From: Parafannyhessea umbonata
Lineage (GTDB): Bacteria > Actinomycetota > Coriobacteriia > Coriobacteriales > Atopobiaceae
Reading direction: 5' to 3'
Assembly (NCBI RefSeq): GCF_900105025.1
Contig: NZ_LT629759.1
Location: forward strand, 868,001-932,000
Length of the DNA stretch: 64,000 nt
The position numbers were made by a program, and so were the translations under genes. The first letter of the stretch is position 1. Every line of letters begins with the position of its first letter. The notes beneath the pieces were generated by a model. It searched no databases and had not been told where the DNA came from. It saw only the letters and a list, made by a program, of their open reading frames with translations. Shown piece after piece: positions 14,612-63,956 of the stretch.

Positions 14612-14650
14612 CTGCCTACTAATTGCTAGTTGCTTACTGATTGATGCTTG

Positions 14651-14681
14651 CGCCGCCCTCACATTCGAGGGCGGCGTTTTT
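14651..14681 (+). terminator. Rho-independent terminator after trxB
   Basis: A 10-bp perfect stem (CGCCGCCCTC / GAGGGCGGCG) with a 6-base loop is followed by five T. It lies 39 bases after the trxB stop. Confidence 0.9.
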
Positions 14682-17051: not shown

Positions 17052-17074
17052 GTGCCTTCCATCCCGCATCCAAC

Positions 17075-17107
17075 GAAAAGCACCTGTCGGCTCTCGCTGA
17101 CAGGTGC
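17075..17107 (-). terminator. Probable terminator after apt
   Basis: A 9-bp stem (GCACCTGTC / GACAGGTGC) with a 10-base loop is followed on the minus strand by TTTTCG. The short T run makes it a moderate terminator. It lies between apt and the ClC gene. Confidence 0.7.
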
Positions 17108-17145
17108 CTGGTGAAGCTACTTGCCTGTTGCCACGTTGCCTGCTG

Positions 17146-43796: not shown

Positions 43797-43844
43797 TGGT
43801 CGGGTGGACTGGATTCGAACCAGCGACCCCTTGACCCCCAGGGC
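43797..43844 (-). other. 3' half of tRNA-Pro(GGG): attachment site of the integrative element
   Basis: The minus strand reads from the anticodon loop (CTGGGGGTC) through the T arm (GGTTCGAATCC) to the acceptor end CCACCCGACCA, as in tRNA-Pro with anticodon GGG. The 5' half (acceptor 5' strand, D arm) is missing on the right, where integrase DNA begins. This is what remains at the far end after an element integrates into the 3' end of a tRNA gene. The intact tRNA should lie at the other end of the element, beyond 64000. Confidence 0.75.
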
Positions 43845-47849: not shown

Positions 47850-49769
47850 TTACATTACCTTCTGAAACATATGGCGCACCTTGTCCAGGCGGCTGTTTGG
47901 ACGGCGGGGCTGGATGACCGGCTGACCGACAGCGGCCTGATATCCTTTCAGCTCTGTAAGGCATACGCTCCGCCCGTTGGTGTAAAAGGCCAGATCAGTA
48001 CGGTATGCCTGTATACAGCGGGCGGGAATCTCGCCAGTAAAGACAACTTCATCCTTTTTTACCTGGGCCGTTTCGATGGTGGCACAGTATTTCGGTGCAT
48101 CATGATAAGCCCTGGAAAGGTATTCCTGGGGCGCATAGAGGGTGAAGGAGAGATAAGGTTCCAGCAGCTGCGTCCCCGATTCCTTCAATGCCTGTTCCAA
48201 TACAATCGGGGCCAATGAGCGGAAGTCCGCCGGCGTGCTGACTGGACTGTAATAAAGCCCGTATTCAAAGCAAATCTTACAGTCCGTTACGTTCCAGCCG
48301 AACAAGCCCTGCTCCAGCCCGTAACGGATACCATCCCTGACAGCGTTTTGAAAACTCTGGTTCAAGTATCCCAGCGAAACCCGGCTCTCGTATTGTACGC
48401 CGGAGCCAAGCGGGAGTGGTGTAACAGACAGTCCGATAGATGCCCAAAACGGGTTGGGCGGCACCTCGATATGGATGGTGTGGCTGGCTGCTTTGAGCGG
48501 CCGCTCCATATAAATGACGGTGGGTTCCTTTACCACTGTTTCAATCTTGTATTTTTCCGACAGCAAAGCGGAAACGACCTCCAACTGCACCCGGCCCAAA
48601 TAAGAAAGAATGATCTCATGGGTGATGGAATCCACTTCGCAGCGCAAAAGCGGGTCAGTATCCGCAAGTTGCGTAAGAGCGTCCAGCAGCCGTTCTCTTT
48701 GCGCTGCCGTTTTCGGCGCAATCGTCGTCCGCAGCATGGGGAGGGGGGCCTCGCGCCACCTTTTACGAGGGAGCCGGGTTTGATCCCCTAATACATCGTT
48801 TAACCTCACGCTGTCGCTGGGAAGGATAACAATTTCGCCCGGATAAGCGGTGTCTGTCCGAACAATTTCCCCTTTGGATGGAATACGCATCTCTGTGATT
48901 TTCAGCTTTTCTCTCCCGGCCAGGGCCACCGTATCCCGCAGGCGCAGCGTTCCGCTGTATAGCCGCAGATAGACACGCCGCTGGCCGCAATCGGTGTACT
49001 CAACCTTGAAAACGCTGCCGCATAGGGTGGCGCTCCCCTGTTCCCCAATCGGTTGGAACAGTCCTGTCACCGCATCCATCAACGGTTGAATGCCAAGGCC
49101 CTTTTTGGCGCTGCCATGATAGACCGGAAACAGGGAGGCTTCTTGAACCCGCCGCTGTTCCTCCCGCGCAAGTTTTTCCTGGCTGATTGGTTCTCCTGCG
49201 ATATACTTTTCCAATAATGCATCGTTATTTTCGATGACCGCATCCCATGCTTCTATGTCGGTATTTTCCTCCAGGACTATTTCCGGGGACAGCGACACCG
49301 TCTGCTTGATGATAATATCGGCGGAGAGCTTATCCCGAACAGACTGAACCACGCTCTGCAAATCAACGCCAGCCTGGTCGATCTTGTTGATAAAGATAAC
49401 GGTGGGAATGTTCATTTTCCGCAGGGCATGGAACAGAATACGGGTCTGGGCCTGCACGCCATCTTTCGCGGAGATCACCAAGATGGCCCCATCTAAAACA
49501 GCCAAAGAGCGGTACACCTCCGCCAAAAAATCCATGTGGCCGGGCGTATCCACAATGTTAACTTTACATCTGTGCCACTGGAAGGAAGTGACTGCCGCTT
49601 GAATGGTAATCCCACGCTGCCGCTCCAAAAACAAGGTGTCCGTCCTCGTTGTCCCTTTTTCGACGCTCCCTGGTTCTGAAATGGCTCCACTGGCATATAG
49701 CAGACTCTCCGTCAAGGTCGTCTTTCCAGCGTCTACATGGGCAAGAATCCCGATATTGATAATGTTCAT
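47850..49769 (-). CDS. tet(W): Tetracycline resistance ribosomal protection protein Tet(W)
   Basis: The 639-residue protein has the elongation-factor-like GTPase domain with [20 protein letters not shown] (G1), DTPGHMDF (G3) and NKIDQAG (G4), and the C-terminal EF-G-like domains ending in [13 protein letters not shown]. Length and sequence agree with Tet(W) nearly throughout, from my knowledge of the family; a mosaic with other classes cannot be excluded without alignment. It removes tetracycline from the ribosome. Low GC compared with both sides marks recent transfer. RBS GGAGG lies before the ATG; expression is probably controlled by the attenuator upstream. Confidence 0.95.
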
Positions 49770-49801
49770 GTCTATCCTCCATACAAGGCCCGAATGGGCG
49801 C

Positions 49802-49837
49802 AAAAATCCCCAGCGGCTAATACTTTTACCGCTGGGG
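49802..49837 (-). terminator. Attenuator terminator in the tet(W) leader
   Basis: A 9-bp stem (CCCCAGCGG / CCGCTGGGG) with a 12-base loop is followed on the minus strand by ATTTTT, 33 bases before the tet(W) start. Tet(M)-class genes use such a terminator for attenuation. Confidence 0.85.
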
Positions 49838-49987
49838 ATCATGACTTCGGACACACAGAAACATACACGACTTACATAAGCCGCGGTCCGTCACGATATT
49901 TACTAAAAAGGCAAAAGTATTCTTAAAATTGGGTACAAAAACCAAGCCCCTGCAAGGGGCAATCATTTTTGCGCCCATTATCAAATT

Positions 49988-50011
49988 TTATTTAAGAATA
50001 CCTTGCCGCAT
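49988..50011 (-). CDS. Short leader peptide of tet(W)
   Basis: Seven-codon frame MRQGILK ahead of tet(W). Its TATTCTTAAAT end is complementary to ATTTTAAGAATA further down the leader (about 49915), so ribosome position can change pairing and the downstream terminator. This follows the model known for tet(M). A Shine-Dalgarno-like AAAGGAG lies upstream of the ATG. Confidence 0.65.
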   Translation of the reverse strand: MRQGILK

Positions 50012-50126
50012 ATTTTTTACTCCTTTTCTGGATTAAATCATTGTATCACATCAGTTTTAAGATATCACATCAGTTTTAGGAAAGCAAGTACCTAAAAGAA
50101 ATTTTTCTTCCCCTTATATGTAACAA
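50012..50126 (-). promoter_or_regulatory. tet(W) promoter region with direct repeat
   Basis: The minus strand has two copies of TAAAACTGATGTGATA (about 50042-50078), the second followed by CAAT so that TACAAT could serve as -10. No perfect -35 is at standard spacing. AT-rich, typical of the conserved tet(W) flank. Confidence 0.45.
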
Positions 50127-50255
50127 TCATACCGGCTTCCTAGCGTTCAGAATGTTTTCTGCTGTCTGCTGTGGTGTTTGGTTGGAATTGTCCAGCCAAA
50201 AGCCGATCCGTGGTGTTGTCTGCATTTTACTAAATACAAATTCAATGTATACAGA
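50127..50255 (-). pseudogene. C-terminal fragment of an unidentified gene
   Basis: The minus strand reads VYIEFVFSKMQTTPRIGFWL and DNSNQTPQQTAENILNARKP, then stop. The IGFWLDNSNQTPQQTAENIL pattern recalls the ends of small P-loop kinases or ATP-binding proteins in Firmicutes, but this is a weak recollection. The rest of the gene is absent. It belongs to the low-GC tet(W) segment. Confidence 0.4.
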
Positions 50256-50291
50256 AAGATATAAGGAGTGGGAGGGATTCCGCCGTAGTTG

Positions 50292-50343
50292 GCATTGTAG
50301 GAAAATCCAAAAGTTTAGATTTTCCCACAATGCTTATCTTTTG
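50292..50343. repeat. Inverted repeat at the right border of the tet(W) segment
   Basis: Arms GCATTGTAGGAAAATC and GATTTTCCCACAATGC (one mismatch) enclose a 20-base spacer. Its position where tet(W)-type DNA meets the OLD-like fragment suggests an element end or a terminator. Confidence 0.65.
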
Positions 50344-50344
50344 G

Positions 50345-50504
50345 TCTTTGGTTCGGAATAGTGTAGTGCTGGCGGTCTATCTCTTGTTTTCGGTTGCTTG
50401 CTTCCTTACCGTACATGAGCATTCGCCCAAGGATTGTCCATTGGCTCGATGCGGGGTTCTCCCTCATGCGACGGTCGGGTCCGATTGATGCGGAAACATA
50501 TTTG
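50345..50504 (-). pseudogene. Downstream piece of the split OLD-like ATPase gene
   Basis: Starting in the target duplication, the minus strand continues the reading frame broken at 59549: ...DKYVSASIGPDRRMRENPAS, SQWTILGRMLMYGKEASNRK. The phrase GPDRRM...WTILGRML fits the region after the N-terminal Walker part of OLD-family ATPases. The rest of the protein (Walker B, Toprim nuclease) is missing: the frame runs into the inverted repeat at 50343 and stops at 50315. A second event, probably arrival of the tet(W) segment, removed it. Confidence 0.8.
50497..50504. repeat. Left target-site duplication CATATTTG of the ISL3-type transposon
   Basis: Perfect 8-bp direct repeat with 59549-59556, immediately outside the terminal inverted repeats. 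Eight bases is the duplication length of ISL3-family elements. Confidence 0.95.
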
Positions 50505-50528
50505 GGGTATGTAAAATAAGTGGTTGGA
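50505..50528 (+). repeat. Left terminal inverted repeat of the transposon
   Basis: GGGTATGTAAAATAAGTGGT followed by TGGA. Pairs with 59525-59548, differing only at positions 14 and 16. Confidence 0.93.
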
Positions 50529-50617
50529 AATTGGTAAATCTCTGGTTGGCCGCGTTCGAGTCATAGCTAAGGCATCCAACCATCTTTTTAACAATCTGGA
50601 ATACTAGAGTCCAACCA
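50521..50617. repeat. Left subterminal motif array (four TGGTTGG sites)
   Basis: TGGTTGG at 50521-50527 and 50543-50549 on the plus strand, and its complement CCAACCA at 50576-50582 and 50611-50617, each beside an AT-rich TTTTTAACAA- or TAAAT-like block. They match the motif in the right end and probably bind the transposase. Confidence 0.8.
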
Positions 50618-50618
50618 C

Positions 50619-51254
50619 TTATCTACCGTCTTTACGCATTGAATCGAAGTCGATCAGCTCTAGTTGCTCTACGAACTTCTCGAGATATGAGGCGACTTCC
50701 TCGTCGTTCACGAAGAGCGGCCTATCCTGTGTGAGCCTTCCTGAACTGTCTTGCGGATAGCGAAGGCTGATGCCGTTGTCGTCGATGCCGGCTACGGCCC
50801 CTACGAATGCGCCCATGTTTTTGATGGCCCTGTTGTCCTCACGGCACCTCTGCCCTGGGAACCTCGAGAGCAGGGAGCTCCACAGCTTCGTGAGGCTGTG
50901 CTCTCTCTTGGGCTCGACTCCGCACTTCCTAATCGCCCGCTTGATAGCGAGCTCCATGCAGTGTCTCGTGAGGAACAGGACCGGGATCGCATAGGAATGC
51001 TTCAGCATCACGTACATCCCCGGCCTGTCGATGGCCCTTCTTCCGGCGGCCGCCAGTTCCTTCGCGGCGTTGAGGAACGAGCGGATGAACTCCTCCTCGA
51101 ACAGCTCGCCCTTGAGCTCTTCATTCATCAGGACGGACGAGTCCAGCAGGGAGAAATCCCTCAGGGTGGGGTCGTTAAAGCCGTTCATCTGCGGCTTCAT
51201 CACTTGACGGCGCACGTATCGTGGAAATACATGCTCGGTGAATAGACTTCCCAT
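50619..51254 (-). CDS. HEPN-like hypothetical protein, transposon cargo
   Basis: A 211-residue protein. MLKHSYAIPVLFLTRHCMELAIKRAIRKCGVEPKREHSLTKLWSSL has the look of a HEPN domain: hydrophobic helices with a central ELAIKRAI and a following EHSLTKLW. HEPN proteins are often RNases or their binding partners in defence modules; the usual Rx4-6H catalytic motif is not clear. The ATG overlaps the transposase stop (TAATG). It is the last gene of the transposon and ends among the left subterminal repeats. Confidence 0.55.
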   Translation of the reverse strand: MGSLFTEHVFPRYVRRQVMKPQMNGFNDPTLRDFSLLDSSVLMNEELKGELFEEEFIRSFLNAAKELAAAGRRAIDRPGMYVMLKHSYAIPVLFLTRHCMELAIKRAIRKCGVEPKREHSLTKLWSSLLSRFPGQRCREDNRAIKNMGAFVGAVAGIDDNGISLRYPQDSSGRLTQDRPLFVNDEEVASYLEKFVEQLELIDFDSMRKDGR

Positions 51255-52633
51255 TAAAGAACCTCCCCAGTCGTTGCGTCGACCCTCACTCCCGACCTCG
51301 GGTCTATGAACTCGTCCACGGCCTCGTCCTCGCGGTCGGGCTCGGTCACGAAGAGCGGGCCGGGTGCATCGATGCGAGGGCCAATCGTGAGCCCGTTGCT
51401 CGCGATGATGCGGTCGAGGTTCTGCCTTCGGTAGAGGGTCCTGGCCCGAAGCGTCTCGAACGAGTAGCCGCGCCCCCTCATGTCCGTCTCGTTGATGAGC
51501 CGGTTCGCGCACTCGGTGTAGCCGTTCGAGATGCGGCTGGGGCAGTCCCAGTAGTTGAAGATGAACTCGCGGTGGTTCTGGACGGTCCGGGCAAGGGCTC
51601 TGAACGGATTGAGGTCCCTGCCTTCGGGAATCTCCCGAACCCAGGCGTCGAACGCCGCCTCAGCCTCCTCGCGCGAGGACGGATGGTCGTCGTAGATGCC
51701 GAAGAAGTCCTCCTTGAGGTCGTACGCGGCCATCAGCGTCGAGTAGGAGGGGTCCTCCCGCAGCGCCCTGAGGGCCGATGCCTCGTAGGGGCTGAGGTCG
51801 CTCGTCCGCTTCCTGAGGGCGTAGGCGAGGCCCTTCTTCAGCTCAAGGCGGCCCTTCCTGTCGAGGGTCCCCTGGAGGCCCTTGCGGATCGTGTCCAGGG
51901 CCTCGTTGGCCCCCTTCACGACATGGAAGTGGTCGATGACCCATGTCGCGTTCGGGGTGTACTTGGCTATGCTCTTCCAGAAAGGCCGGTACATGTCGCT
52001 CGAGACCCACCGCACGCGCTCAAGGCCCTCCAACGAGGAGAAGTAGGCGTCGAGGTCTGACTGCGTCCTGCCGGGCACCATGTCGAATACCGTCCTGTGC
52101 TCGAGGTCGGTGATCACGGTCACCATGCCGACCCTCTTGAGGTTCTTCTCGTCTATGCCCAGGAACGCCGGCACCTTGAAGCGAAGCCTCGAGGCGTTCT
52201 CGCGGACGTAGTCCTCGAAGACGTTCTTCACGGTGACGTGCGAGAGCGGGTACTCCTCGGCGACCTCGCGGAAGGTGAGCCTGAGCGAGCGCTGGGCGAT
52301 GTCGGCGTATGCCGCCTCCGTCATCCGGTGGCCCTCGTCGACCCCGCCTATCTCCGGGCGCCACACGTAGCCGCACTCCGGGCACCGCATCCGCGGGAAC
52401 CCTATCTCGAGCCTCGTCGGGATGCCCAGGTGGGGCGTAGACGCCACGCCGACGGTCCTCGCGCCGTGGCTGTGCAGCGTCCCCCCGCACTCGGGGCACG
52501 TTGCGGGGACGGGGCCACGGTATCTCAGGTCGAACTGCTGGAGCCTCCTGCCGCAATCGACCTTGGTCGAGCTGCCGATGAGCTCGCAGTCCCGGACGCC
52601 GAGCAGCTCCTCGACGTATCCTGCCGCGCCCAT
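51254..52633 (-). CDS. ISL3-family transposase
   Basis: The 459-residue protein begins with a zinc-finger-like N terminus (CPECGGTLHSHGARTVGV and MRCPECGYVWRP), a helix-turn-helix (FREVAEEYPLSHVTVKNVFEDYV), and the DDE_Tnp_ISL3 core: PAFLGIDEKNLKR with the first Asp, VSSDMYRPFWKSIAKYTPNA with the second, and SNGYTECANRLINETDMRGRGYSFE with the Glu. All three look present. The ATG directly follows the hsdR stop (TAGATG), and GGGGGAAG inside hsdR is the RBS, so it is expressed with the RM operon rather than from its own promoter. Confidence 0.93.
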   Translation of the reverse strand: MGAAGYVEELLGVRDCELIGSSTKVDCGRRLQQFDLRYRGPVPATCPECGGTLHSHGARTVGVASTPHLGIPTRLEIGFPRMRCPECGYVWRPEIGGVDEGHRMTEAAYADIAQRSLRLTFREVAEEYPLSHVTVKNVFEDYVRENASRLRFKVPAFLGIDEKNLKRVGMVTVITDLEHRTVFDMVPGRTQSDLDAYFSSLEGLERVRWVSSDMYRPFWKSIAKYTPNATWVIDHFHVVKGANEALDTIRKGLQGTLDRKGRLELKKGLAYALRKRTSDLSPYEASALRALREDPSYSTLMAAYDLKEDFFGIYDDHPSSREEAEAAFDAWVREIPEGRDLNPFRALARTVQNHREFIFNYWDCPSRISNGYTECANRLINETDMRGRGYSFETLRARTLYRRQNLDRIIASNGLTIGPRIDAPGPLFVTEPDREDEAVDEFIDPRSGVRVDATTGEVL

Positions 52634-55600
52634 CTACTTCCCCCTAGAGAGGTAGGAGGCGAGCTCGGCGATGTCGTAGCGCTTCCCCTGCGAGATGAGG
52701 TCGTACACCTGGTCGGCAAGGGGCTCGATCGCCTGCGGGTCGTCGAGCGCCTGCTCGGCGAGGTCGCCCAGCTCGTTGCTCATCATCGACATGAGGGCCC
52801 TGATGACGATGTTGCGAAGGCGCCCGTCCGCGAGGACGGCCTCCTTCGTGTTGCTCGTGTTCGTGATCTGGGTGTTGGTCACGGGGTCTGCCGCCACGGC
52901 GTCGGAGACCGCGTTGACGGCGCGTGCCTTCACGAGGGGGTCGCCCTCGTCGCCCCACGTACGGTTCAGCCGTTCCACGATTCTTGCCATGGTGTCTCGC
53001 TTGGGGGCTGATCCGGAACCTCCGGCACCCACCGGCATGAGCTCGCCGCCCTCGACCCCCTCGGGGACCTTCTGGGCCGATATGCGGAAGTCCCGGAGCA
53101 CGAGGCCACGCACGTCGACGTCGTCGAGCGAGGTGCCCGCGATCCTGTGGCCGAGCAGCTTTGCGAAGCCGTAGAACACCTCGAGGTCGGGATCGCCGTA
53201 GTCGAGCGCCTGGGACAGGAACGTGTAGGCGGAGCAGTACTTGGAGAGCTTCTTCCTGAAGGTCATCAGCTCGGCGACCCGCCCCGCCGCCTCGTCCGCG
53301 CTCCTCTTGGCCCTCTCCGCCTCCTCGGCCTCGCCGGCCGCCTCCGCCCGGTTGGCGCACTCCAGCCAGGTCTCATACGAGTCCTTGGCCGAGGCGAACC
53401 TCTCCCGAAAGATCTCCGCGGGGCGCGACACGGCGGAGTAGAGCGCCGCCCTGTAGGCATCGCTCTCACCGCCCGCGGCAAGGCCCTTTGACCTATAGAG
53501 GGCCTCCTTGAACTCCTCGACGTCGCGCGTCGCATACACGTCGGCGGCGTCGAGTGCCTCCTTCAGCTCGTAGACCACGTCGGGGTCCTGAGCCATGTTC
53601 ATGCTTGCGCCCTTGTCGTAGGTCTTGAAGGCCGCGAGCACCGTCTCGGGATCGTTCACGAAGTCGACCACGAAGACCTTGTCCTTGCCAGAGCACGTCC
53701 TGTTGACGCGCGAGTAGGTCTGGACGATCTCGATTGCGTTGCCGAGGGGCTTGTCAACGTAGAGGGCCACGAGCTTCTTCTGGTCGAAGCCGGTCTGGAA
53801 CTTGTTCGCGACGATGAGGAGCCTGCGCTCCGGTCGGTCGAACGCCCTCTCGACCGCGCCCTCGCCGGCAGGGTTCATGTTGGCCTCGGTGTACTCGTAG
53901 TCGCGCTCAATGAGGGCGAACGGGTTGTCCTTGAGGTACTCGTCCTCGGGCAGGACGCACTTGTCACCCAGCACCTTCTGGGAGAAGGCGACGAGAGGTT
54001 CGCCGGGCACCTTGAAGCGCAGCTTCGGCTCGACCTTCGCCGGATCGAGGTCGGGCCGCGACTTCAGGTATGCCTCGATCGCATACTTGTAGCGCACCAC
54101 CTCGGGACGGCCGGAGGTGACGATCATGGCCTTGGCCTCGCCGTTCAGGAGCGGCGCCACGTTGTCGACGAAGTGGTCGATGATCCACTTGGCCTTCTCC
54201 ATTACGTTGGTCGGGTGGAGCGAGCGCCATTTAGCGATCTTCCTTTTTGCCCTGCGTTCGTCGACGAGCCTGTCATCGGCATCCTCGGACTCGTCCTCGA
54301 TCCTCGATAGCGTCCTCAAAGGCACGTAACCCGTAAGCGGGTCGATGATGTAGCCCTCCTCGATCGCCTGCCGCATCGGGTAGAGGTGGAAGCTGCCCAT
54401 GACCGGGTTGCCATCCTCGTCCATCTCGCCGGTCGGGGTCCCGAAGAGGGTCTTGGTCTCGGCCTTGGGGGTCGCGGTGAACGCCAGGAAGGAGACGTTC
54501 GGCGGCATGAGGTTGCTCGCCTGCATCTGGGCGAAGTAGGCGTCCATGACGGTCTCATCGTCCGACTCGTCGTCGAAGTCGAGCATCCTCTCGAACTTCA
54601 GCTTGTCAGCCGCGGCGTTGAAGGCGGTCTTTAGGGACGCGGCGGAGCTTCCTTCCTGGGAGCTGTGGGCCTCGTCGACGATGACCGCGAAGCCGGCGCC
54701 GTCGAGCTCCGGCAGCGACGCGATGTCCGGCCAGGCGTAGAGGAACGTCTGGATAGTGACGACGACGATCTCCCTCTTCTGCCGAAGGGCCTCGACGAGC
54801 TGCGAGCTCTTGGAGCCGTCGGCGACGGCGTTGCCCCGCTCGTCGCGACCGACCATGACGACCTGTCCCGTCACCTTGGAGAGCTGGGAGATGGTCTTCT
54901 TTATGTTCTGGTCGAGCGACAGCCTGTCGGTGACCACCACGACGCTCGAGAACATCTTCTCGCCGTCCGCGCGGCGGAGCCTCGCGAGGTCGTGCGCGGC
55001 CCAGGAGATGGTCTCAGTCTTGCCGGAGCCGGCCGAGTGCTCGATGAGGTAGCGGCGACCCGGCCCGTGCTCCCGTGCATCGGCCAAGACCTTTCTCTCG
55101 GCGTCGAACTGGTGGTAGCGGGGGAATATCTGCGTCGCCTGCCTGCGCCACCGACCGCTCGCGTCCTGCCTGTCCTCGACCTCCTCGAATACGAACCTGT
55201 CGAAGATGGACAGCCAGTTGTCGCGCTGTAGAATGGTGTCCCAGAGGTAGTGGGTCCTGTACTCGCCCTCCGGCGCGTCCGGATTGCCCGCGCCGCCGTC
55301 ACGTCCCAGGTTGAACGGGAGGAATCGGGGCCTCGCCGACTTGCTCGGGAAGGGGCCAAGGTTCGTGCACATCCAGACCTCGTCCTCGGAGACGGCGAAG
55401 TGGACGACCGCCCCGCGCTTGTACATGAGCAGCGGGTTCTTCCTGCCGCCGTCGGGCTCCACCGCCTTTCGCTCCTCGGCGTACTCGTCGATCGCGTCCC
55501 GGACCGTCTGCGTGAGCTCGGTCTTGACCTCGCCCGTGGCGACGGGGATGCCGTTGACGAAGAGCGCGAAGTCGAGCGACTTGCTCCCGGCGGTCTGGTA

Positions 55601-56059
55601 GTGGACCTGGTGCATGAAGCGCAGGATGTTCGCGTCGTAACGCTCCCTCGCGCCGGGGACGCGCTCGTCGTCGGGGTAGCCCGCCATGCACTCGATGGTC
55701 TGGTACCCCGCCATCTGGAAGCCCTTGCGCAGAGTGAGGACAGTGCCGTTCCTCTCGAGGCTCTTCACCAGGGCGCGTCTCAGCTGGTCGGCCCAGCGGG
55801 CGCCCTTCTCGCGGCGCATTTTGTCGAGTTTCTCGGGTGCGGTAGCCTCGAGCCAGGCCACGAAGTCGTCAAAGACCAGCGCATTGTCTGCGTCGAAGCC
55901 CGTGTCGTCGGGCGAGAGTTCCCAGCCCGAGTTGCCGAGCCCCGCGACCTTGCGCGAGATGTAGCGCTCGAAGGCGTCCTCCTGGTGAATCTTGCGTAAG
56001 CCGTTGTAATCGACGGTAATCTGGCCTTTGCTCGCGCGATGCATGTCGGACAGCGCCAT
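52634..56059 (-). CDS. hsdR: Type I restriction endonuclease subunit R
   Basis: The 1141-residue motor and nuclease subunit. The N-terminal nuclease domain has the PD-(D/E)xK motif in SLDFALFVNGIPVATGEVKT (Asp..Glu-Val-Lys). The helicase domains show Walker A EHSAGSGKTETISW near residue 346, DEAH in AVIVDEAHSSQEGS, TATPKAETK (motif III) and NKFQTGFDQKKLVALYV, ending in a helical C-terminal domain that binds the methylase. It starts 2 bases after hsdS. It cuts unmethylated DNA after translocation. Confidence 0.95.
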   Translation of the reverse strand: MALSDMHRASKGQITVDYNGLRKIHQEDAFERYISRKVAGLGNSGWELSPDDTGFDADNALVFDDFVAWLEATAPEKLDKMRREKGARWADQLRRALVKSLERNGTVLTLRKGFQMAGYQTIECMAGYPDDERVPGARERYDANILRFMHQVHYQTAGSKSLDFALFVNGIPVATGEVKTELTQTVRDAIDEYAEERKAVEPDGGRKNPLLMYKRGAVVHFAVSEDEVWMCTNLGPFPSKSARPRFLPFNLGRDGGAGNPDAPEGEYRTHYLWDTILQRDNWLSIFDRFVFEEVEDRQDASGRWRRQATQIFPRYHQFDAERKVLADAREHGPGRRYLIEHSAGSGKTETISWAAHDLARLRRADGEKMFSSVVVVTDRLSLDQNIKKTISQLSKVTGQVVMVGRDERGNAVADGSKSSQLVEALRQKREIVVVTIQTFLYAWPDIASLPELDGAGFAVIVDEAHSSQEGSSAASLKTAFNAAADKLKFERMLDFDDESDDETVMDAYFAQMQASNLMPPNVSFLAFTATPKAETKTLFGTPTGEMDEDGNPVMGSFHLYPMRQAIEEGYIIDPLTGYVPLRTLSRIEDESEDADDRLVDERRAKRKIAKWRSLHPTNVMEKAKWIIDHFVDNVAPLLNGEAKAMIVTSGRPEVVRYKYAIEAYLKSRPDLDPAKVEPKLRFKVPGEPLVAFSQKVLGDKCVLPEDEYLKDNPFALIERDYEYTEANMNPAGEGAVERAFDRPERRLLIVANKFQTGFDQKKLVALYVDKPLGNAIEIVQTYSRVNRTCSGKDKVFVVDFVNDPETVLAAFKTYDKGASMNMAQDPDVVYELKEALDAADVYATRDVEEFKEALYRSKGLAAGGESDAYRAALYSAVSRPAEIFRERFASAKDSYETWLECANRAEAAGEAEEAERAKRSADEAAGRVAELMTFRKKLSKYCSAYTFLSQALDYGDPDLEVFYGFAKLLGHRIAGTSLDDVDVRGLVLRDFRISAQKVPEGVEGGELMPVGAGGSGSAPKRDTMARIVERLNRTWGDEGDPLVKARAVNAVSDAVAADPVTNTQITNTSNTKEAVLADGRLRNIVIRALMSMMSNELGDLAEQALDDPQAIEPLADQVYDLISQGKRYDIAELASYLSRGK

Positions 56060-56061
56060 GG

Positions 56062-57321
56062 CTAAGCCTCCGTGCAGTCGATCTTGCCGGTGACGGCGTG
56101 GTGGATGATGGATTTGCGGTACTCTCCGAGCTTCTCGATGAGCTGTTCCTGTCGGGAGATCGCCTCGTCGATGGCGGCACAGCGTTCATCGAGGAACGCA
56201 ACAATTGATTCCCTATCAGCTATTGGCGGCACTATAGCTGAGAGTTTCAGGAAAACCTCTGGATATAGTCGAAGCCTGGAATCCATAATCCCAGTCGAAA
56301 ACGATTTGAAATAAGTACAGTAAAGGTTCGTTCTAAACAGATAATGAAAATAGCGGGGACAAATGGAGCCCTTGGGGCTAAAGACGCCATAAGAGGGGCT
56401 AATTACGCCATCGTGTTCCGAAACGGCCTGTGCGCCTTTCCAGGCAAGCATAATATTCATTATCAGGTCGCCGCACTTGCATTGCTGATATCCACGCAGC
56501 GATTCTGCTCGCACCAGCGTATCGCTTTCCTTGATACGTTTCTTTCGATAGTCAACGCCGTAGTATTCGGAGACAGAAAGAAGTTCATCTTCTGTCGCGT
56601 CGTCAATCAGAACCCTCCTTTGTTGAAATAGAGAGCCGATACGTAAAATTTCCCAGGTAGTCGGCACCTTGCCGAGCCACTCGACCCCGCTGTCCTTCAT
56701 TTCAGTATTCGGGTCGAGGCCCTTCGTCACAGCACGCGCGATGAGGGACTTCTTGTACTCTTTGAGCTTCTCGATGACCTCACGGCGCTTGTCGATGTCT
56801 GCATCGATGGCGGCGCAACGCTCGTCGAGGTAGGAGACGATACGGCGTTGCTCAGAAAGAGGTGGCACGGGAAACACGGTGTTTTCTACGCCTTCTTTTG
56901 TCACATGGACCATCGTTGAGCCATGGCTCTGCATTCGCTGCCATTCAGCGTTGGCGCCGAGCGCATAAAAGGCATACCGCTGGAGATAATCTCTAAACTG
57001 ATCGACCTTCCAGATGTGGTAGTGATATATAACCTTTTCTTCATTCCAAAATACGGGCCCAAAGGTTGTCGCCCACAGATAGAGGAGATCTCCCTTTTTG
57101 CAGTACTGCTTTTCCGGGAGCTCCAAATCGCTGTAATACCACTTGTCGTTGGTGTTGAAATTGCCCACTCTCAAAACCCGATAAGTTCCTTTGGCAAGAA
57201 GCTCCTGTTGCTTATAGGCACGACCGTTTGTGAGCGACATGAGATACTTAACCTTGCTTTGTTTCCAATTCTGGGGCACCTCGCCAATCCACTCAACCCC
57301 GCTGTCCTTCATCTCCCTCAT
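56062..57321 (-). CDS. hsdS: Type I restriction specificity subunit S
   Basis: The 419-residue protein has two target-recognition domains, each starting with a repeated MKDSGVEWIGEVP/MKDSGVEWLGKVP unit (residues 4-16 and 208-220) and ending in a conserved helix: PPLSEQRRIVSYLDERCAAIDADI and PPIADRESIVAFLDERCAAID. The two domains read different half-sites; their low GC relative to hsdM and hsdR suggests exchange. ATGA overlap with hsdM. The recognition sequence cannot be read from the protein. Confidence 0.95.
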   Translation of the reverse strand: MREMKDSGVEWIGEVPQNWKQSKVKYLMSLTNGRAYKQQELLAKGTYRVLRVGNFNTNDKWYYSDLELPEKQYCKKGDLLYLWATTFGPVFWNEEKVIYHYHIWKVDQFRDYLQRYAFYALGANAEWQRMQSHGSTMVHVTKEGVENTVFPVPPLSEQRRIVSYLDERCAAIDADIDKRREVIEKLKEYKKSLIARAVTKGLDPNTEMKDSGVEWLGKVPTTWEILRIGSLFQQRRVLIDDATEDELLSVSEYYGVDYRKKRIKESDTLVRAESLRGYQQCKCGDLIMNIMLAWKGAQAVSEHDGVISPSYGVFSPKGSICPRYFHYLFRTNLYCTYFKSFSTGIMDSRLRLYPEVFLKLSAIVPPIADRESIVAFLDERCAAIDEAISRQEQLIEKLGEYRKSIIHHAVTGKIDCTEA

Positions 57322-59393
57322 GCCAGGAACCCCCTCATGAGCTCGCCGAGGCCGTCCTCGAGCGCGAGGATCTCCTTCGCGATGACCTCGGGGTCGCGGG
57401 GCTTCTCATACTTGTAGAAGTACCTGTTGAACGAGATTGACGTGCCGACCACGCCCACCCCACCGTCGCCGAGCGGGTTGGAGGTGAGACCGGTCTTCTT
57501 GTCGAACCTCGGCTCGTCGATCACGGACGCGTCCACGACGGCGTCGGGTGCGTAGGGCAGCACCTCGCTCGCCATGTAGTCGTCGATGTCCATGCCGAGC
57601 GGCACGTTCTCGGAGTCCCTCAGCTCGGGGTCGAACACGGGGTTGCCCTTCGCGTCGACCGCCGGCTCCGCGGAGGGGTCTTGCCGACCGAACACCTTGA
57701 CGAGCGCCTCGACGAGCTTCGTCTTCTGCGGCTTAGGGTTCTCGAGCCTCTTGAAGAGCCCATCGACGTCCTTGAGGAGCTGAGCATAGGTGAGCGCGTC
57801 GCCCTCGTTCGCCGCCGCCCACAACCGGATGGTCGCCCGGTTTTCCCCAGTCATCTTCTCCATGGGTTTGCTGAACGAGAAGAGCTCGTCGAGCTTCTCG
57901 GGCGTAGGCTCGACGAACACGCGCAGCGGGCGCTGGGTCGTTACCTTGCGGTACATGAAGTCCTCGACGGGAACGATGACCGACTTGCCGTGGTCGTGGC
58001 CGTCGACGTAAGTGCGGACGATCCACGCTGCCTGCTCCTCGCCGATTTCGTATCGCTTGTTGCCCTGGCTCTTGCGCAGCGCCGTCCTCTCCTCGGAGGC
58101 GTCGATGAGCTGGACGTAGCCCTTACGGTTCTCGGGCTTATGGTTGTTGAGCACCCAGACATAGGTGGCGATGCCCGTGCGGAAGAAGATCTCGGTTGGG
58201 AGCTTAACGATGCAGTCGACCAGGTCCTCATGGAAGAGCCAGCGGCGGATGTTCGAGGGCCCGCTTCCCGCGTCCCCGTTGAACAGAGGAGAGCCGGAGA
58301 GCACGATGGCCGCCTTGCCGCCGCCCTCCTCGACAGGCGCCATCTTCGCGGCGACGTTCTGAAGGAACAGCATACTCCCGTCGTCGATGCTGGGAAGGCC
58401 CGCGCCGAACTTGCCGCCGAAGCCCCTCTGCGCCTCCTCGACCACGCCGTCCTGTTCCTTCCTCCACTCCTTCCCGTAAGGTGGGTTGGTGAGCTGGTAG
58501 TTGAAGGTGCGCCCATCGAACCTGTCGTCGTCGAGGGTGTCGCCGAGCATGATGCCCGCCGAGAGGTCGCTCATCTGGTCGAGCACGTCACCGGAGCCAC
58601 CGGCGATGTTGCGCAGCATAAGGGCCGCCTTGCCCATGGCCCACGTCGCGTCTTCGAGCTCCTGGCCGTAGGGGACGATCTTGGTGGGGCTGCTGAAGTG
58701 TCCCTTGTCGTGCCATTCGTCGAGCTGGTCGAGCGCGTCGCAGATGAAGCCACAGGTCCCGCAGCTGCCGTCGTAGAGCGTGCGGATGTCGCCGTTGTCG
58801 GCGTTGAGCAGCGTGTCCTCGTTTGCGAAGAGCAGCGCGGTGGCGAGGCGAGCGACGTCCTTGGGCGTCATGAAGTCCTCGGCGTCCTGCGAGATCTCCT
58901 CGCCGTAGCGCTGGATGAGGTGCTCGTAGATGTCGGTCATCATGCGGTCCGAGACCGACTCAGGTCCAAGGTCGAAGCTCGCGAAGCGCGTGCAGACCTC
59001 GTAGAGCATGCCCTTCTCGTCCAGCTTCTCGCAGGTCTGGCGCATCTCGAAGCGCTGCAAGACCTCGCGGGCGTTCGCGGAGAAGCCGTTGATGTAGGCC
59101 ATGAGGGCGTCACAGGTCTTAGTGGCACCGAGGTTGGAGAGCGTGAAGCTCGTCACGTTGTAGAAGCAGTGGCCCGAGATGGCGCAGTACTTCGGGTCGT
59201 CGTCGTCCCAAACTCCCTTGGCGGCTTGCCTGCTGACCGCACCTCTCGTCGCATCGAGCGCGCACTCGAAGCGCCTCAGCACCGCAAAGGGCAGAATGAG
59301 CTTGTTGTAGTCGGCGGGGCGGATCACGTCGCGCACGTAGTTTGCGATGCCCCATATCTCGTTCACGTAGTCGAACGCGGACTTCACGGCCAT
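57318..59393 (-). CDS. hsdM: Type I restriction-modification methyltransferase subunit M
   Basis: The 691-residue N6-adenine methylase has the N-terminal HsdM bundle (IWGIANYVRDVIRPADYNKL), an SAM-binding motif region (LYDGSCGTCGFICDALDQLD) and the catalytic NPPYGKEW. It is longer than the EcoKI type (about 530) but fits the larger HsdM class. The ATG at 59393 with GAGAGGA upstream is the start. It is the first gene of the cargo operon; a candidate promoter (TTGTAA, 17 bases, CTATTT) lies among the right subterminal repeats, so transposase and methylase control may share sites. Confidence 0.95.
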   Translation of the reverse strand: MAVKSAFDYVNEIWGIANYVRDVIRPADYNKLILPFAVLRRFECALDATRGAVSRQAAKGVWDDDDPKYCAISGHCFYNVTSFTLSNLGATKTCDALMAYINGFSANAREVLQRFEMRQTCEKLDEKGMLYEVCTRFASFDLGPESVSDRMMTDIYEHLIQRYGEEISQDAEDFMTPKDVARLATALLFANEDTLLNADNGDIRTLYDGSCGTCGFICDALDQLDEWHDKGHFSSPTKIVPYGQELEDATWAMGKAALMLRNIAGGSGDVLDQMSDLSAGIMLGDTLDDDRFDGRTFNYQLTNPPYGKEWRKEQDGVVEEAQRGFGGKFGAGLPSIDDGSMLFLQNVAAKMAPVEEGGGKAAIVLSGSPLFNGDAGSGPSNIRRWLFHEDLVDCIVKLPTEIFFRTGIATYVWVLNNHKPENRKGYVQLIDASEERTALRKSQGNKRYEIGEEQAAWIVRTYVDGHDHGKSVIVPVEDFMYRKVTTQRPLRVFVEPTPEKLDELFSFSKPMEKMTGENRATIRLWAAANEGDALTYAQLLKDVDGLFKRLENPKPQKTKLVEALVKVFGRQDPSAEPAVDAKGNPVFDPELRDSENVPLGMDIDDYMASEVLPYAPDAVVDASVIDEPRFDKKTGLTSNPLGDGGVGVVGTSISFNRYFYKYEKPRDPEVIAKEILALEDGLGELMRGFLA

Positions 59394-59422
59394 GGTCGGT
59401 CCTCTCTGAGAGAAATAGAATT

Positions 59423-59532
59423 CCAACCATGTATTTTACAACCGAAAGCCATGATTTGAGCTGTTAGCCAACCAATAGTTTAACAACTCTGGCGAACGGT
59501 TTCGCCAACCACTGACTTAACGAATCCAACCA
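59423..59532. repeat. Right subterminal motif array (four CCAACCA sites)
   Basis: CCAACCA starts at 59423, 59468, 59505 and 59526, each followed by an AT block such as ATAGTTTAACAAC. Spacings are 45, 37 and 21 bases. All four have the same direction, the last one being part of the terminal repeat. They also surround the probable hsdM promoter. Confidence 0.85.
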
Positions 59533-59548
59533 GTAATTTTACATACCC
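59525..59548 (-). repeat. Right terminal inverted repeat of the transposon
   Basis: On the minus strand reads GGGTATGTAAAATTACTGGT then TGGA, matching 22 of 24 bases of the left end. Confidence 0.93.
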
Positions 59549-59556
59549 CATATTTG
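59549..59556. repeat. Right target-site duplication CATATTTG
   Basis: Perfect match to 50497-50504, directly outside the right terminal repeat. Confidence 0.95.
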
Positions 59557-59894
59557 TCGCGAGCATCGCCGTTGGCGTAGCTGCCATTCAGATTCAGGCC
59601 ATGTCTCTCTTTACCTCGGTAGTCAACCCAGGTGGAGTCAAATGAGAGGATGTTTCTATCATCGAACCGCATCGCAATCTTCAAAGGCTGGTCATCTTTG
59701 CCGTTGTAAAAATCTGACTTATCCAGTCGGTTCGGTACAGGATATGTGGGTCCGAGCAGGTACTCCATGGCTGCCATGATGTTGCTCTTCCCAACGTTGT
59801 TGGCACCGATGAATACGTTGATGCGAGGGTTAAGATCAACGTGAAGTTCTTTGATGCTCTTGTAGTTGATGATGTCGAGATGCTCGATCTTCAT
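59549..59894 (-). pseudogene. N-terminal part of an OLD-like ATPase gene, split by the transposon
   Basis: The ATG at 59894 overlaps the DUF4391 stop. The frame reads MKIEHLDIINYKSIKELHVD, then FIGANNVGKSNIMAAMEYLL with a Walker A loop, typical of OLD-family overcoming-lysogenization-defect ATPases. At codon 116 it runs into the transposon end and stops at 59517 after nine foreign codons. The continuation is found at 50345-50504. The eight bases 59549-59556 are the right target duplication. As it stands only about a quarter or less of the gene is present, so the product is non-functional. Confidence 0.9.
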
Positions 59895-60517
59895 TTGGCA
59901 CCGCCTTCCATAAGACGTCGTATCTCTTCGCGCAACTTGTTTTCCTCGTCGAAGAGCCGGTTCCTGCGCGCGAACTGCTTCTCTTTCCTGTGCCTTGCCT
60001 CTACCTTGGCAAGCCGCTCCTTGAGACGCTCGATCTTCTCGTCCGTGGCATGGCGTTCCTCCACGGTCTCGCCTGCACGTCCCTCATCGCCGTAGGCCAC
60101 CTGCGATGCCATGAGGTCCCAGGTCTGGTCCATGCCGGTGGGGTCGAGCCTGAGCGCGAGCTCGCCGGCGTCCTGCCACTGTCCCACGACGAGGCTCCCG
60201 AGCAGCACCGCAAGGCACGCCCTTCCGTCCCGGGTGCATGCGAACAGCAGCCTGTGCGGGTTCGAGCGGGCGATTGCCGCTAGCGCGGCCTTCGGCACCG
60301 TTGCTCCCTTGAGCGCCACCTCGAGGACGAGCACCTCCTGGACGACATCCCCCGCGGGGATGCCGGTCGTCGAGGGCTTAATCGAGTTCCTCAGGGTGAT
60401 GGACTCGATGTCGTCCACGAACGATCGCCTGGTCGCGGGGTCGAGCTGAAGGTGCTCGTAGAACGCCCTCTTCGGCAGGACCCTGTCGACCTCCGTCGTG
60501 CTCGGCAGTCCTAGCAT
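59891..60517 (-). CDS. DUF4391 domain protein
   Basis: The 208-residue protein fits DUF4391: MLGLPSTTEVDRVLPKRAFYEHL at the start, VLVLEVALKGATVPKAALAAIARSNPHRLLF, and a charged C-terminal coiled coil (EKIERLKERLAKVEARHRKE). DUF4391 genes often stand next to SNF2-type helicases and methyltransferases in defence loci; their function is not known. The ATG at 60517 overlaps the helicase stop (ATGCTAG), and its own stop overlaps the OLD-like start, so the operon is tightly coupled. Confidence 0.75.
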   Translation of the reverse strand: MLGLPSTTEVDRVLPKRAFYEHLQLDPATRRSFVDDIESITLRNSIKPSTTGIPAGDVVQEVLVLEVALKGATVPKAALAAIARSNPHRLLFACTRDGRACLAVLLGSLVVGQWQDAGELALRLDPTGMDQTWDLMASQVAYGDEGRAGETVEERHATDEKIERLKERLAKVEARHRKEKQFARRNRLFDEENKLREEIRRLMEGGAK

Positions 60518-63500
60518 CTGGGCCTCACCACCAGGAAGCACACGAGCTCGAAGTCGTCGAGGCCCGCCACGTCGTTCTCCAGGAAGCCGGTCGTGCCGCC
60601 GCCGAAGAAGCTGTCCACGTCCGACTCCTCCTTGGCGCCCATGATGGAGCTCACGGCGGCATTGAGGAGTCCCATTGCCCAGCGCATGTCGCGGCCGTTC
60701 TTGGTCTCTCTGTTGAGGGGCTTGTAGAGCCGCGGGTCCGGTTCGCCTCTCCCCTTGCAGAGTAGCCTCATCTCGTCGAGGACTGCCTTGGGCTCCAGGT
60801 GTGAGTGGACCACCTCCCCGTCCGAGGCGACCTGTACCACATAGAAGGGGTGGATGCGGTTCCTGCCGTCGGGGTTCATCGCCTCGTTCACGTTGCGAAG
60901 GACGAAGACGATGCCGGGCGTGTCGCCCTCGCAGACCGCCTCGATCCCGGAGGGGAGCCGGTCTATCTCGGGGTTTTCCTTGTAGTAGGCAAGCAGGTCC
61001 ATGCGGAACTCGTTGAGCCCCAGGTCCGTGATCGAGACCCCGCCGGAGACGTCCTCGAGGTCGACGACCTCGTGGCGCATCTGCTCTAGCTGCTGCCTGC
61101 GGTACTCGAGGTCGCCCCTCTCGCCCGGGTTCACGTAGTCGTCGTCCCCCGTTGACGCGAGCACGGTCGCCCTCATCCGCGCCTCGACCCGCTCCTTAAG
61201 GTTGATGTACTCGTCCAGCTCGACGTTGGGCCAGTAGTTGACGAGTTGGATGCAGGCATTCCTGGAGCCGATGCGGTCGATCCGCCCGAAGCGCTGCACG
61301 ATGCGCACGGGGTTCCAGTGGATGTCGTAGTTCACGAGGTAGTCGCAGTCCTGCAGGTTCTGGCCCTCGGAGATGCAGTCCGTGGCTATGAGGACGTCTA
61401 TGTCGTGGCCCTCGAGCGCAGGCGAGAGCACGGCGCGCTCCTTGGAGGCGGGGCTGAAGCACTCGAGCACCTCGGCCATCCTCGCGGGGATGCCGGGGCA
61501 GTTGGTCATACAGCCCTTACCCGTGACGACGGCGGTATTCAGGCCGAGCTCATTCTTCGCGAACTCGGAGACGTGCTCGTAGAGGTAGCGCGCCGTGTCG
61601 GAGAACGCGGTGAAGACGAGCACGTTCCTGTTGCCGGGGTTTATGGGGTGCTCGGCCTTCTCTCGGATGTCCTCGCAGAGCCGCAGGAGCTTCGCGTCGT
61701 GGGCGGGGTCGATGTCATCGATCATGGAGAGCAGCAGGCGCACCGTGTCCGCGTCGCGCGCTACCTCCCCCTCCCAGCTCATCCAGTCCATGTCCTCGAG
61801 AAGGATCCCTGTGCCGCCACCGGCCTCCACCGCCTCCGCGTCGTCGGGGTCGAGGTCGAGGTCGATAGTAGCTCCGGCGTCCGAGACCGAGGCGTTCCCC
61901 TCTCTGTGCTGCTTGTAGTGCTCGATGGTCTGAAGCGTCTGCTCCATGTAGGAGAGCACGCGCTCGAGCGTGAGCCGAAAGGAGCTCACGGAGCTCTCGA
62001 GCCGCTTGAGGAGGTTCGTCGTCATGAGGCGCCTGATGCCCGCCTCGCGACCGGCGGCGGAGAGGTTGCCGCTCTCGGGGTCCTCGTACTTCCCCACCTT
62101 GCTCGGCTGCAGGAAGGCGCTTGGCATGTAGACCGAGAGCGTGAGGGAGTCCAGCTCCGCGTAGATCTCGCGGTAGTTGATGGCGCCAGGCAGCGTCGAG
62201 AGGCTGGGGTCGCGCGAGATGGGCGGGAGGCGCCTCGGGAACGGCCCGAGCGCCGCCGTGTCGTAGTACTGCTGTATGTGCCGCCTGCTGCGTGCGATCG
62301 TAACCTGGTCCAGCACCTCGAAGAAGTCGAAGTCGAGCATGTCCTGGAGCCTGGCGGTGGTCCTCTGGCCGACGGGCAGCTTGGACCACGCGGTGTAGGC
62401 GCCCTGCGCGTTCCTGAAGACCGTCTCCACGTCGCACGAGAGCCCGAGGCGTGCCGACCACGCCTCCGGGTCTCCCTGGTAGGCGAGCGCGAGCTGGTTC
62501 CTGAGGTCGCGGAAGCGGTTGTTGACCGGGGTGGCGGAGAGCATGAGCACCTTGGTCCTCACGCCCTGCTTGATGACCTTCTCCATAAGGGTCTGGTATC
62601 GGTTGAGCCTGTCGTTGGTGGCCGAGTCGCCGCCGTTCCTGAAGTTGTGGCTCTCGTCTATCACGACGAGGTCGTAGTTGCCCCAGTTGACGCGGGAGAG
62701 GTCGACCCCCATGGTCTCGGACATCCCGCGCTCGCGCGAGAGGTCCGTGTGGTAGAGCACGTCGTAGCGGAGCCTGTCCGAGGCGATGGGGTTGTTCACG
62801 ACGTTGCGGTTGTATGTTGTCCAGTTGTCCCGGAGCTTCTTGGGGCACAGGACGAGCACGTTCCTGTTGCGGGACTCGTAGTACTTTATGACCGCGAGCG
62901 CCGTGAACGTCTTGCCCAGGCCGACGGAGTCCGCGAGGATGCAGCCGTCGAAGGTCTCGAGCTTGTTGATGATCGCGATGGCGGCATCCCTCTGGAAGTC
63001 GTACAGCTTGCCCCAAATGGCGCTCTCGCGGAAGCCGGTGCCCTCCTTGGGGAGCACGTCCTCGGACACGTCGTCGAGGAACTCGCTGAAGATGCGGTAG
63101 AGGGCCATGTAGTAGACGAGTTCGGGAGGGTTCTCCTTGTACATGGCCGTGATGGAGTCGACCACCGCGTCCGTCACGTCGTCGAGCCGGCCGGAGTCCC
63201 AGGCCTCGTCGAAGATGTCGAGGAGGGCCCTCGACGTGGACGCGTCCGGCCGCATGACAAGCGCCTGCCTGCCCGAGGAGTTGTCCACGCCCAGCTCCGC
63301 CGTGGTCAGCCCGGCGAACGGCGTGTAGGCGGCGGTCCCCTCCGGGCCGTCCACCACGAGGAAGGTGTTGTCCATCCCGTTGTCCACGCCGAAGGAGCGG
63401 AACTTGGCCTTCCGGCGGATCCAGCGGGCGCACTCGGAGGCGACCGACTTCTGCGTCAGCTCGTTGCGGAGGCGAATCTCCAGCTGGGTCCCGCAGAGCC

Positions 63501-63750
63501 CCTTCTCCCGGGCGAGCCGGGGGATGTAGAACTCCCGCTCCTGCTTGGGGGGCCGGCTCCTGGTGAACGCCTGCGACGTGAAGATGAAGCGGAACTCGTC
63601 GAGGCCGTCGAGCTGCTCCTTGAGCTCCTGGTAGGCGTACATCGAGAAGACCTCGGCCGCGACCGACACGCGGTCGCCGGACCTGATGGTCGAGACCAGG
63701 TCGTCCTTCACGATGTTCGCCTTGTTGTCGAAGAAGGGGGGATGCGTCAT
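60511..63750 (-). CDS. SNF2-like helicase with N-terminal PLD-like domain
   Basis: The 1079-residue protein begins with about 220 residues resembling a phospholipase D-like nuclease fold (DLVSTIRSGDRVSVAAEVFS, LDEFRFIFTSQAF), then superfamily 2 motifs: I in CILADSVGLGKTFTALAV, II in LVVIDESHNFRN, III in LMLSATPVNNR, and the C-terminal V/VI in IATDCISEGQNLQDCDY and QRFGRIDRIGS. An acidic insert lies near residue 640. Such PLD-helicase proteins occur in phage-defence operons. The start at 63750 has GGAGGGAAG and overlaps the RHH gene (ATGA). Confidence 0.88.
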   Translation of the reverse strand: MTHPPFFDNKANIVKDDLVSTIRSGDRVSVAAEVFSMYAYQELKEQLDGLDEFRFIFTSQAFTRSRPPKQEREFYIPRLAREKGLCGTQLEIRLRNELTQKSVASECARWIRRKAKFRSFGVDNGMDNTFLVVDGPEGTAAYTPFAGLTTAELGVDNSSGRQALVMRPDASTSRALLDIFDEAWDSGRLDDVTDAVVDSITAMYKENPPELVYYMALYRIFSEFLDDVSEDVLPKEGTGFRESAIWGKLYDFQRDAAIAIINKLETFDGCILADSVGLGKTFTALAVIKYYESRNRNVLVLCPKKLRDNWTTYNRNVVNNPIASDRLRYDVLYHTDLSRERGMSETMGVDLSRVNWGNYDLVVIDESHNFRNGGDSATNDRLNRYQTLMEKVIKQGVRTKVLMLSATPVNNRFRDLRNQLALAYQGDPEAWSARLGLSCDVETVFRNAQGAYTAWSKLPVGQRTTARLQDMLDFDFFEVLDQVTIARSRRHIQQYYDTAALGPFPRRLPPISRDPSLSTLPGAINYREIYAELDSLTLSVYMPSAFLQPSKVGKYEDPESGNLSAAGREAGIRRLMTTNLLKRLESSVSSFRLTLERVLSYMEQTLQTIEHYKQHREGNASVSDAGATIDLDLDPDDAEAVEAGGGTGILLEDMDWMSWEGEVARDADTVRLLLSMIDDIDPAHDAKLLRLCEDIREKAEHPINPGNRNVLVFTAFSDTARYLYEHVSEFAKNELGLNTAVVTGKGCMTNCPGIPARMAEVLECFSPASKERAVLSPALEGHDIDVLIATDCISEGQNLQDCDYLVNYDIHWNPVRIVQRFGRIDRIGSRNACIQLVNYWPNVELDEYINLKERVEARMRATVLASTGDDDYVNPGERGDLEYRRQQLEQMRHEVVDLEDVSGGVSITDLGLNEFRMDLLAYYKENPEIDRLPSGIEAVCEGDTPGIVFVLRNVNEAMNPDGRNRIHPFYVVQVASDGEVVHSHLEPKAVLDEMRLLCKGRGEPDPRLYKPLNRETKNGRDMRWAMGLLNAAVSSIMGAKEESDVDSFFGGGTTGFLENDVAGLDDFELVCFLVVRPRC

Positions 63751-63956
63751 TCTTTGCTTCCCTCCGAGAGCCTCTCTATGAGGCATACCTTCACGTACGT
63801 TGTCAGGCTCATGCCCTTCAGCTCCGCCGCTTCCTTCGCCGCGTCGCGCAGGTTCCGCGGGATTCGCATAGTGACCGGGACGTTCTCCGAACCCACGAGG
63901 AACGCCTGAATCTCGGTGGGGGTGGCGCCGGAGTCGACGAGCTCTGAGTACTTCAT
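63747..63956 (-). CDS. Ribbon-helix-helix type small DNA-binding protein
   Basis: A 69-residue protein: MKYSELVDSGATPTEIQAFL then VPVTMRIPRNLRDAAKEAAE and LKGMSLTTYVKVCLIERLSE. The VTMRIPRNLRDAAKEAA strand-helix followed by a second helix is the RHH fold seen in Arc-like repressors and antitoxins. The ATG at 63956 is preferred as the fold begins soon after; an in-frame start at 63989 exists. As first gene of the helicase operon it is probably its autoregulator. No cognate toxin of the usual kind follows. Confidence 0.75.
   Translation of the reverse strand: MKYSELVDSGATPTEIQAFLVGSENVPVTMRIPRNLRDAAKEAAELKGMSLTTYVKVCLIERLSEGSKE

Follow-up and report, generated by a model that had tools for sequence, protein, structure and literature searches.

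In type III restriction-modification (RM) systems, such as EcoP15I and EcoP1I, the division of labour between two subunits is well described for EcoP15I: Mod methylates one strand of an asymmetric site, while Mod-Res first moves at the expense of ATP and then cuts DNA that has unmethylated sites. Another type of ATP-dependent restriction enzyme, represented by SauUSI, consists of one protein, in which an N-terminal PLD-fold nuclease is joined to a helicase and which cuts modified DNA. Effectors combining HKD and SNF2 parts occur also in BREX-related systems, and a role as backup effectors was proposed for OLD, HEPN and Schlafen cargo of BREX loci (PMC12839542). Here, a group of genes from Parafannyhessea umbonata (Actinomycetota) is compared with these systems. 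The stretch analysed, 64,000 nucleotides long and hereafter called the window (contig NZ_LT629759.1, positions 868,001 to 932,000), is part of a complete 2.35-Mb chromosome, and on its minus strand, at 59517-63956, it carries four confirmed open reading frames (ORFs) for an RHH protein, an SNF2 helicase, a DUF4391 protein and a truncated OLD-type ATPase (Table 1). In our opinion, with a probability of roughly 0.88, this operon is a decayed, cargo-bearing copy of a widespread type III RM-like quartet composed of an SNF2 helicase whose PLD domain is dead, DUF4391, Mod and Res. The focal locus is broken by two different mobile elements.

Loci with DUF4391 were gathered from 150 relatives (the order sample), 30 genomes of which gave a match, and 80 helicase loci were taken from the 582 candidate relatives that were obtained when about 85,000 species genomes were scanned. 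Neighbour genes were classified by hidden Markov models built for this analysis and counted in the 76 loci having at least 5 kb downstream of the helicase. Type III Mod, an N6 adenine methyltransferase, was found in 75 of them, Res, an SF2 helicase with a PD-(D/E)XK endonuclease, in 74, both subunits in 73 and OLD in 4. Because Mod and Res accompany the helicase so regularly and OLD so rarely, the focal set represents the first half of a longer cluster resembling type III RM, together with optional cargo, and not one machine of four coupled genes, as had been supposed in a sequence-only reading of the window. That reading had also named an observation which would speak against it, namely that DUF4391 and the helicase are regularly followed elsewhere by type III methyltransferase and helicase genes in the absence of OLD; the first part was observed in the 73 loci, but OLD is not always absent. 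Three loci (L048, L049 and L050) were scored as being without DUF4391 due to an artefact of the simple ORF picker, and Pfam finds the domain there.

At the sequence level, the Mod and Res proteins of the relatives match ModA and Res of EcoP15I (3e-52 and 1e-69), and they also match the type III models of PADLOC over their length. The motif DPPY is present in 81 of 81 long Mods, and all 75 long Res proteins contain Walker A, DEPQ/DEAH and PD..ExK patterns, so that intact relatives share with EcoP15I the methyltransferase, helicase and PD-(D/E)XK endonuclease motifs. Unlike EcoP15I and EcoP1I, nearly every quartet locus has a PLD-fold SNF2 helicase and DUF4391 preceding Mod, and the core genes are often separated by cargo. 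The quartet is filed here as a variant of type III RM, apparently an unnamed one. Full-text literature searches, which left subscription papers mostly outside their scope, gave no published name for it, and a name may exist; DUF4391 appeared in this literature only as a table entry, and searches for C3a139, COG combinations and SNF2 with type III RM returned nothing relevant.

The taxonomic distribution of the quartet is broad and includes loci labelled as Coriobacteriia, Clostridia, Bacteroidales, Verrucomicrobia, Planctomycetes, Spirochaetes and Proteobacteria, among others. Relatives of the cluster were found in 100 plasmid records; a bare helicase-DUF4391-Mod-Res quartet is annotated on the plasmids pHS30-1 of E. 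coli and LkipL4701 of Leuconostoc kimchii, in the latter at 8527-17293, the same order is kept on p116-3 of Enterococcus faecium, where the second gene is annotated only as hypothetical, and pE31A of Aeromonas media has this order with cargo in both slots. Co-occurrence of DUF4391 and Res was measured in the order sample, in which about 29 genomes gave a near-full-length Res match and 27 of these also have DUF4391. In the two others, the match lies at a contig edge (G063) or belongs to a decayed Res (G022). The latter gene (L153) is a lone frameshifted Res with neither Mod, DUF4391 nor helicase nearby, whose pieces are 90-96% identical to the Res of L035; it is another decayed copy of the cluster.

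At the focal locus, neither Mod nor Res stands in the operon, and their place is occupied by the OLD fragment, a transposon and a tet(W) unit. No match to Mod, Res, the rest of OLD or second copies was found anywhere in the genome of the window. The focal copy is thus a remnant of the quartet and no working member of type III RM. Lacking Mod, Res and the greater part of OLD, it is expected neither to modify DNA nor to restrict it. The sequence-only reading overlooked the loss of both subunits, as well as the fact that OLD resumes at 50504-50424 and is cut there by the tet(W) unit.

The helicase belongs to the quartet clade and has DUF4391 directly behind it; both genes are open and conserved in comparison with a relative, from which the helicase differs by 72 synonymous and 38 non-synonymous codons among 1080. 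In the nearest relatives, two other genomes (L035 and L039), the first 4079 bp, up to window position 59922 and through the helicase/DUF4391 junction, are 96% identical at the DNA level, so the feature is not a product of chance. There the order is RHH-helicase-DUF4391-Mod-AlbA-Res, followed by GmrSD. As had been claimed from the sequence, all junctions of the focal operon overlap, by ATGA at 63747-63750 (RHH/helicase), ATGCTAG at 60511-60517 (helicase/DUF4391) and ATGA at 59891-59894 (DUF4391/OLD). Pfam recognizes DUF4391 (8e-37), SNF2 and Helicase_C on the helicase, and AAA_15 on the OLD fragment (1.7e-18), and the match of the RHH protein to CopG is weak (0.004, below the cut-off). This small protein is likely an autoregulator of the operon; its homologues are encoded immediately before the helicase in L033, L035, L037, L042, L044, L048, L049 and L051.

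OLD is optional cargo, one kind among several. When cargo was scored by gap length, the slot between DUF4391 and Mod was occupied in 39 of 82 loci and that between Mod and Res in 32 of 75. A search of 82 cargo proteins with Pfam gave AlbA/Schlafen (8), Fic (6), YhcG PD-(D/E)XK (5), RhuM (4), Abi_C (4) and 23S rRNA IVP (3), in addition to OLD-type ATPases, and several cargo proteins match PADLOC candidate defence models. The position of OLD also varies: it stands before Mod in L033 and L130 and after Res in L115 and L117. The intact homologue in L033 (genome G139), 564 residues long, has an ABC-type ATPase and an OLD TOPRIM domain, as do the OLD/GajA nucleases (class 1 OLD, Gabija), and matches the solved OLD-family protein 6p74. 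The focal 5' fragment is 61% identical to residues 1-118 of this protein. Unlike these nucleases, the focal gene has lost the TOPRIM domain and rides as cargo in an RM cluster; only residues of about 1-140 remain, in two pieces. It is interrupted at two sites, by the transposon (59551) and by the 5' end of the tet(W) unit (50423), which implies no order in time.

The overlaps at every junction could be read as a sign that RHH, helicase, DUF4391 and OLD form one self-contained defence machine, which was later broken by an RM transposon, and a search for intact loci with these four genes did find RHH-helicase-DUF4391-OLD in L033, with the same ATGA overlap between DUF4391 and OLD as in the focal operon. 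However, Mod follows directly behind OLD in L033 itself, and the scarcity and changing position of OLD, set against the constancy of Mod and Res, make such a machine very improbable. It is unlikely, too, that the helicase and DUF4391 are an independent unit, for instance, an orphan helicase system for repair or anti-phage action, which merely tends to adjoin type III RM genes and has remained functional in this bacterium. Both genes are open and conserved here, they overlap, and the SNF2 core motifs are intact, but the nearly invariant order that they keep with Mod-Res in many phyla and on plasmids, and the accompaniment of Res by DUF4391 in the order sample, argue for membership in the larger cluster. 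The genomes with DUF4391 and without Res (G054 and G079) are uninformative in this respect, because the gene lies on a short contig or at a contig end.

The third explanation concerns the helicase, which could be a SauUSI-like restriction enzyme in its own right. PADLOC assigns it to C3a139, 'HKD+Snf2' (2e-107), and an AlphaFold model of the first 245 aligned residues, based on 83 homologues and of mixed quality (mean pLDDT 71.8), matched in Foldseek Zucchini (4.6e-4), the R protein of NgoAVII (7.6e-4), SauUSI (1.2e-3) and BfiI, with E values from 5e-4 to 2e-2. Thus the focal protein, with part of the model being of low confidence, has in common with SauUSI, NgoAVII and BREX-related HKD-helicases an N-terminal PLD fold that is attached to an SNF2 helicase. 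In contrast to them, the focal family lacks the HKD residues and is partnered with type III Mod-Res, instead of being the nuclease: the columns of the catalytic His and Lys hold M, N, G, T and the like in the 83 homologues, with no conserved H or K, and H.K patterns occur in only 4 of 83, without a common aligned place. It is therefore extremely improbable that this protein cuts modified DNA on its own; the designation of it as a PLD-type helicase was right regarding the fold but not the catalysis, and the domain is most likely a non-catalytic part for DNA binding or docking. Affiliation with DISARM was not found either. The helicase scores distantly against DrmD SNF2 helicase models, with 141 bits being far under the curated cut-off of 610, and its neighbours are type III Mod and Res instead of a DISARM set.

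Some points weigh against the assignment to a type III RM-like quartet as formulated above. Joint action of helicase-DUF4391 with Mod-Res is suggested by the conserved neighbourhood of their genes, the scans that gave the 76 loci were centred on this helicase clade and DUF4391, so other settings of the helicase may be under-sampled, and the two retained genes, being still open, may keep some residual function.

Gene order, losses, insertions and homology are direct observations, and the biochemical roles given below to the helicase, DUF4391 and OLD, like any order of events, are predictions. By homology with EcoP15I, Mod of an intact quartet would methylate adenine on one strand of a short asymmetric site, and Mod-Res would translocate and then cut unmethylated DNA. 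That the helicase and DUF4391 are nearly always present and tightly coupled suggests that they are a stable part of this machine, in which they would most likely serve as an additional DNA translocase or scaffold that loads, licenses, extends, controls or assists Mod-Res. OLD, like other cargo, may be a backup nuclease effector, in the way proposed for BREX loci; in the focal operon it was most likely carried in the DUF4391/Mod slot, and RHH probably regulates the operon. Going further, it may be proposed tentatively, with chances somewhat under even, that the dead-PLD SNF2 helicase, DUF4391, Mod and Res constitute a distinct four-subunit class of ATP-dependent restriction systems, in which the second translocase and DUF4391 are needed for type III-like restriction and which acts as a chassis whose fixed slots take up exchangeable backup effectors (AlbA/Schlafen, Fic, OLD, YhcG nuclease, RhuM, Abi).

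Little can be deduced about DUF4391 from its structure. The model is of high confidence (pLDDT 96.4), and Foldseek, given the whole model and not the globular part alone, found nothing with E below 0.6. According to VIA-align, the C-terminal helical hairpin (residues of about 155-208) alone matches common coiled coils, and a sequence search against the PDB gave designed coiled coils only.

It is the intact family and the transposon with type I RM, rather than the focal copy, that deserve attention. A very common cluster has been split by annotation into an ordinary type III RM pair and loose genes, and if the helicase and DUF4391 prove to be essential, a large share of the systems filed as type III RM work in a manner unlike EcoP15I.

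Table 1. Genes, gene fragments and mobile elements of the focal locus (window coordinates)
Feature	Position	Strand	Remarks
RHH (CopG/DUF6290-like) small protein, 69 aa	63747-63956	-	homologues directly 5' of helicase in relatives
SNF2-family helicase, 1079 aa, intact	60511-63750	-	N-terminal PLD-fold domain without HKD residues
DUF4391 protein, intact	59891-60517	-	globular N-terminal part and C-terminal helical hairpin
OLD-type ATPase/TOPRIM gene, 5' part	59551-59894	-	first ~115 codons; 125-codon ORF continues to 59517, in transposon end
Target-site duplication CAAATATG, helicase-side copy	59551-59558		minus-strand reading
ISL3-family transposon, complete, 9046 bp	50505-59550	-	inserted in OLD; exact ends and 8-bp duplication
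hsdM	57318-59426		in transposon
hsdS	56062-57321		in transposon
hsdR	52634-56059		in transposon
ISL3 transposase	51254-52633		in transposon
HEPN-like ORF	about 50619-51250		in transposon
Target-site duplication CAAATATG, second copy	50497-50504		
OLD gene continuation past transposon	50424-50504	-	residues ~114-140 of L033 protein
Truncated tet(W) unit	47850-50423	-	93.6% identical to L047 4524-7106; cuts OLD at 50423
tet(W)	47850-49769	-	654 nt upstream sequence, to described 5' end of IME_Rho_tet
tRNA-Pro(GGG) 3' fragment	43805-43844		rest of tRNA missing

Some recorded ISL3 elements, such as ISPst2, have similar ends, make 8-bp duplications and carry passenger genes (PMC6305408). The transposon in OLD shares with them a DDE_Tnp_ISL3 transposase, the ends GGGTAT...CTGGTTG and 8-bp target duplications like those of ISPst2; its inverted ends match (GGGTATGTAAAAT..TGGTTGG; the ends of the element are GGGTATGTAAAATTACTGGTTGG and GGGTATGTAAAATAAGTGGTTGG), and its 8-bp duplication is CAAATATG. 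It differs from ISPst2-type elements in carrying an entire type I RM system along with a HEPN-like gene as passengers, for a total of 9 to 10 kb. A homologous transposon (92% over 5.7 kb) was found at another site in G139 (L147 3268-13584) with the 8-bp duplication CAAAAAAA, and an internally deleted copy in G141 (L148, about 3928-5116) is flanked by TATACTTT. The three genomes have one insertion apiece, and the 8-bp duplication is a different one every time, which shows that the transposon moves as a unit. The earlier claim that an RM transposon breaks the operon is confirmed for OLD by the exact ends, and the related idea that one defence system has disrupted another applies to OLD as well, but the main damage at this locus is the loss of Mod and Res. 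As a complete and repeatedly transposed carrier of a whole type I RM system, this element offers a direct route for one restriction system to move and displace another.

The second mobile element is related to IME_Rho_tet, a tet(W) integrative mobilizable element with a conserved upstream region of about 657 nt that ends at the 5' boundary of the element (PMC12904643). The focal unit resembles it in this upstream region and differs in being truncated after tet(W) and in sitting in the OLD gene, not in the usual MAFF2 ORF. The proposed location of the operon on an integrative element is plausible, owing to the tRNA-Pro fragment in the window, likely an attachment-site scar, and to the intact tRNA-Pro(GGG) that adjoins the related operon in L035 and L039. 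An intact tRNA-Pro as the other attachment site was not found in the genome of the window, in which only the fragment itself matches within 2 mismatches.

Some additional observations concern mobile elements near the cluster. In G139, mod of the quartet is split by about 129 kb with plasmid- or integrative conjugative element-like genes (L033 9190-10893 and L151 4987-8382, at about 1.00 and 1.13 Mb). This insert is flanked on either side by a match to Mod residues 613-622, which suggests a direct repeat of about 30 bp and an integrative element that targets the 3' portion of mod. The 5' boundary of the tet(W) unit lies in genes of the quartet cluster in three genomes (window 50423, L047 4524 and L051 7009), the host genes being OLD, mod towards its 3' half and mod near codon 18, respectively. 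In G012 and G022, no more than roughly 12 kb separates tet(W) from the cluster or what remains of it, and a second tet(W)-like gene with 97% protein identity is located at 1294938-1296854 of the same chromosome as the window.

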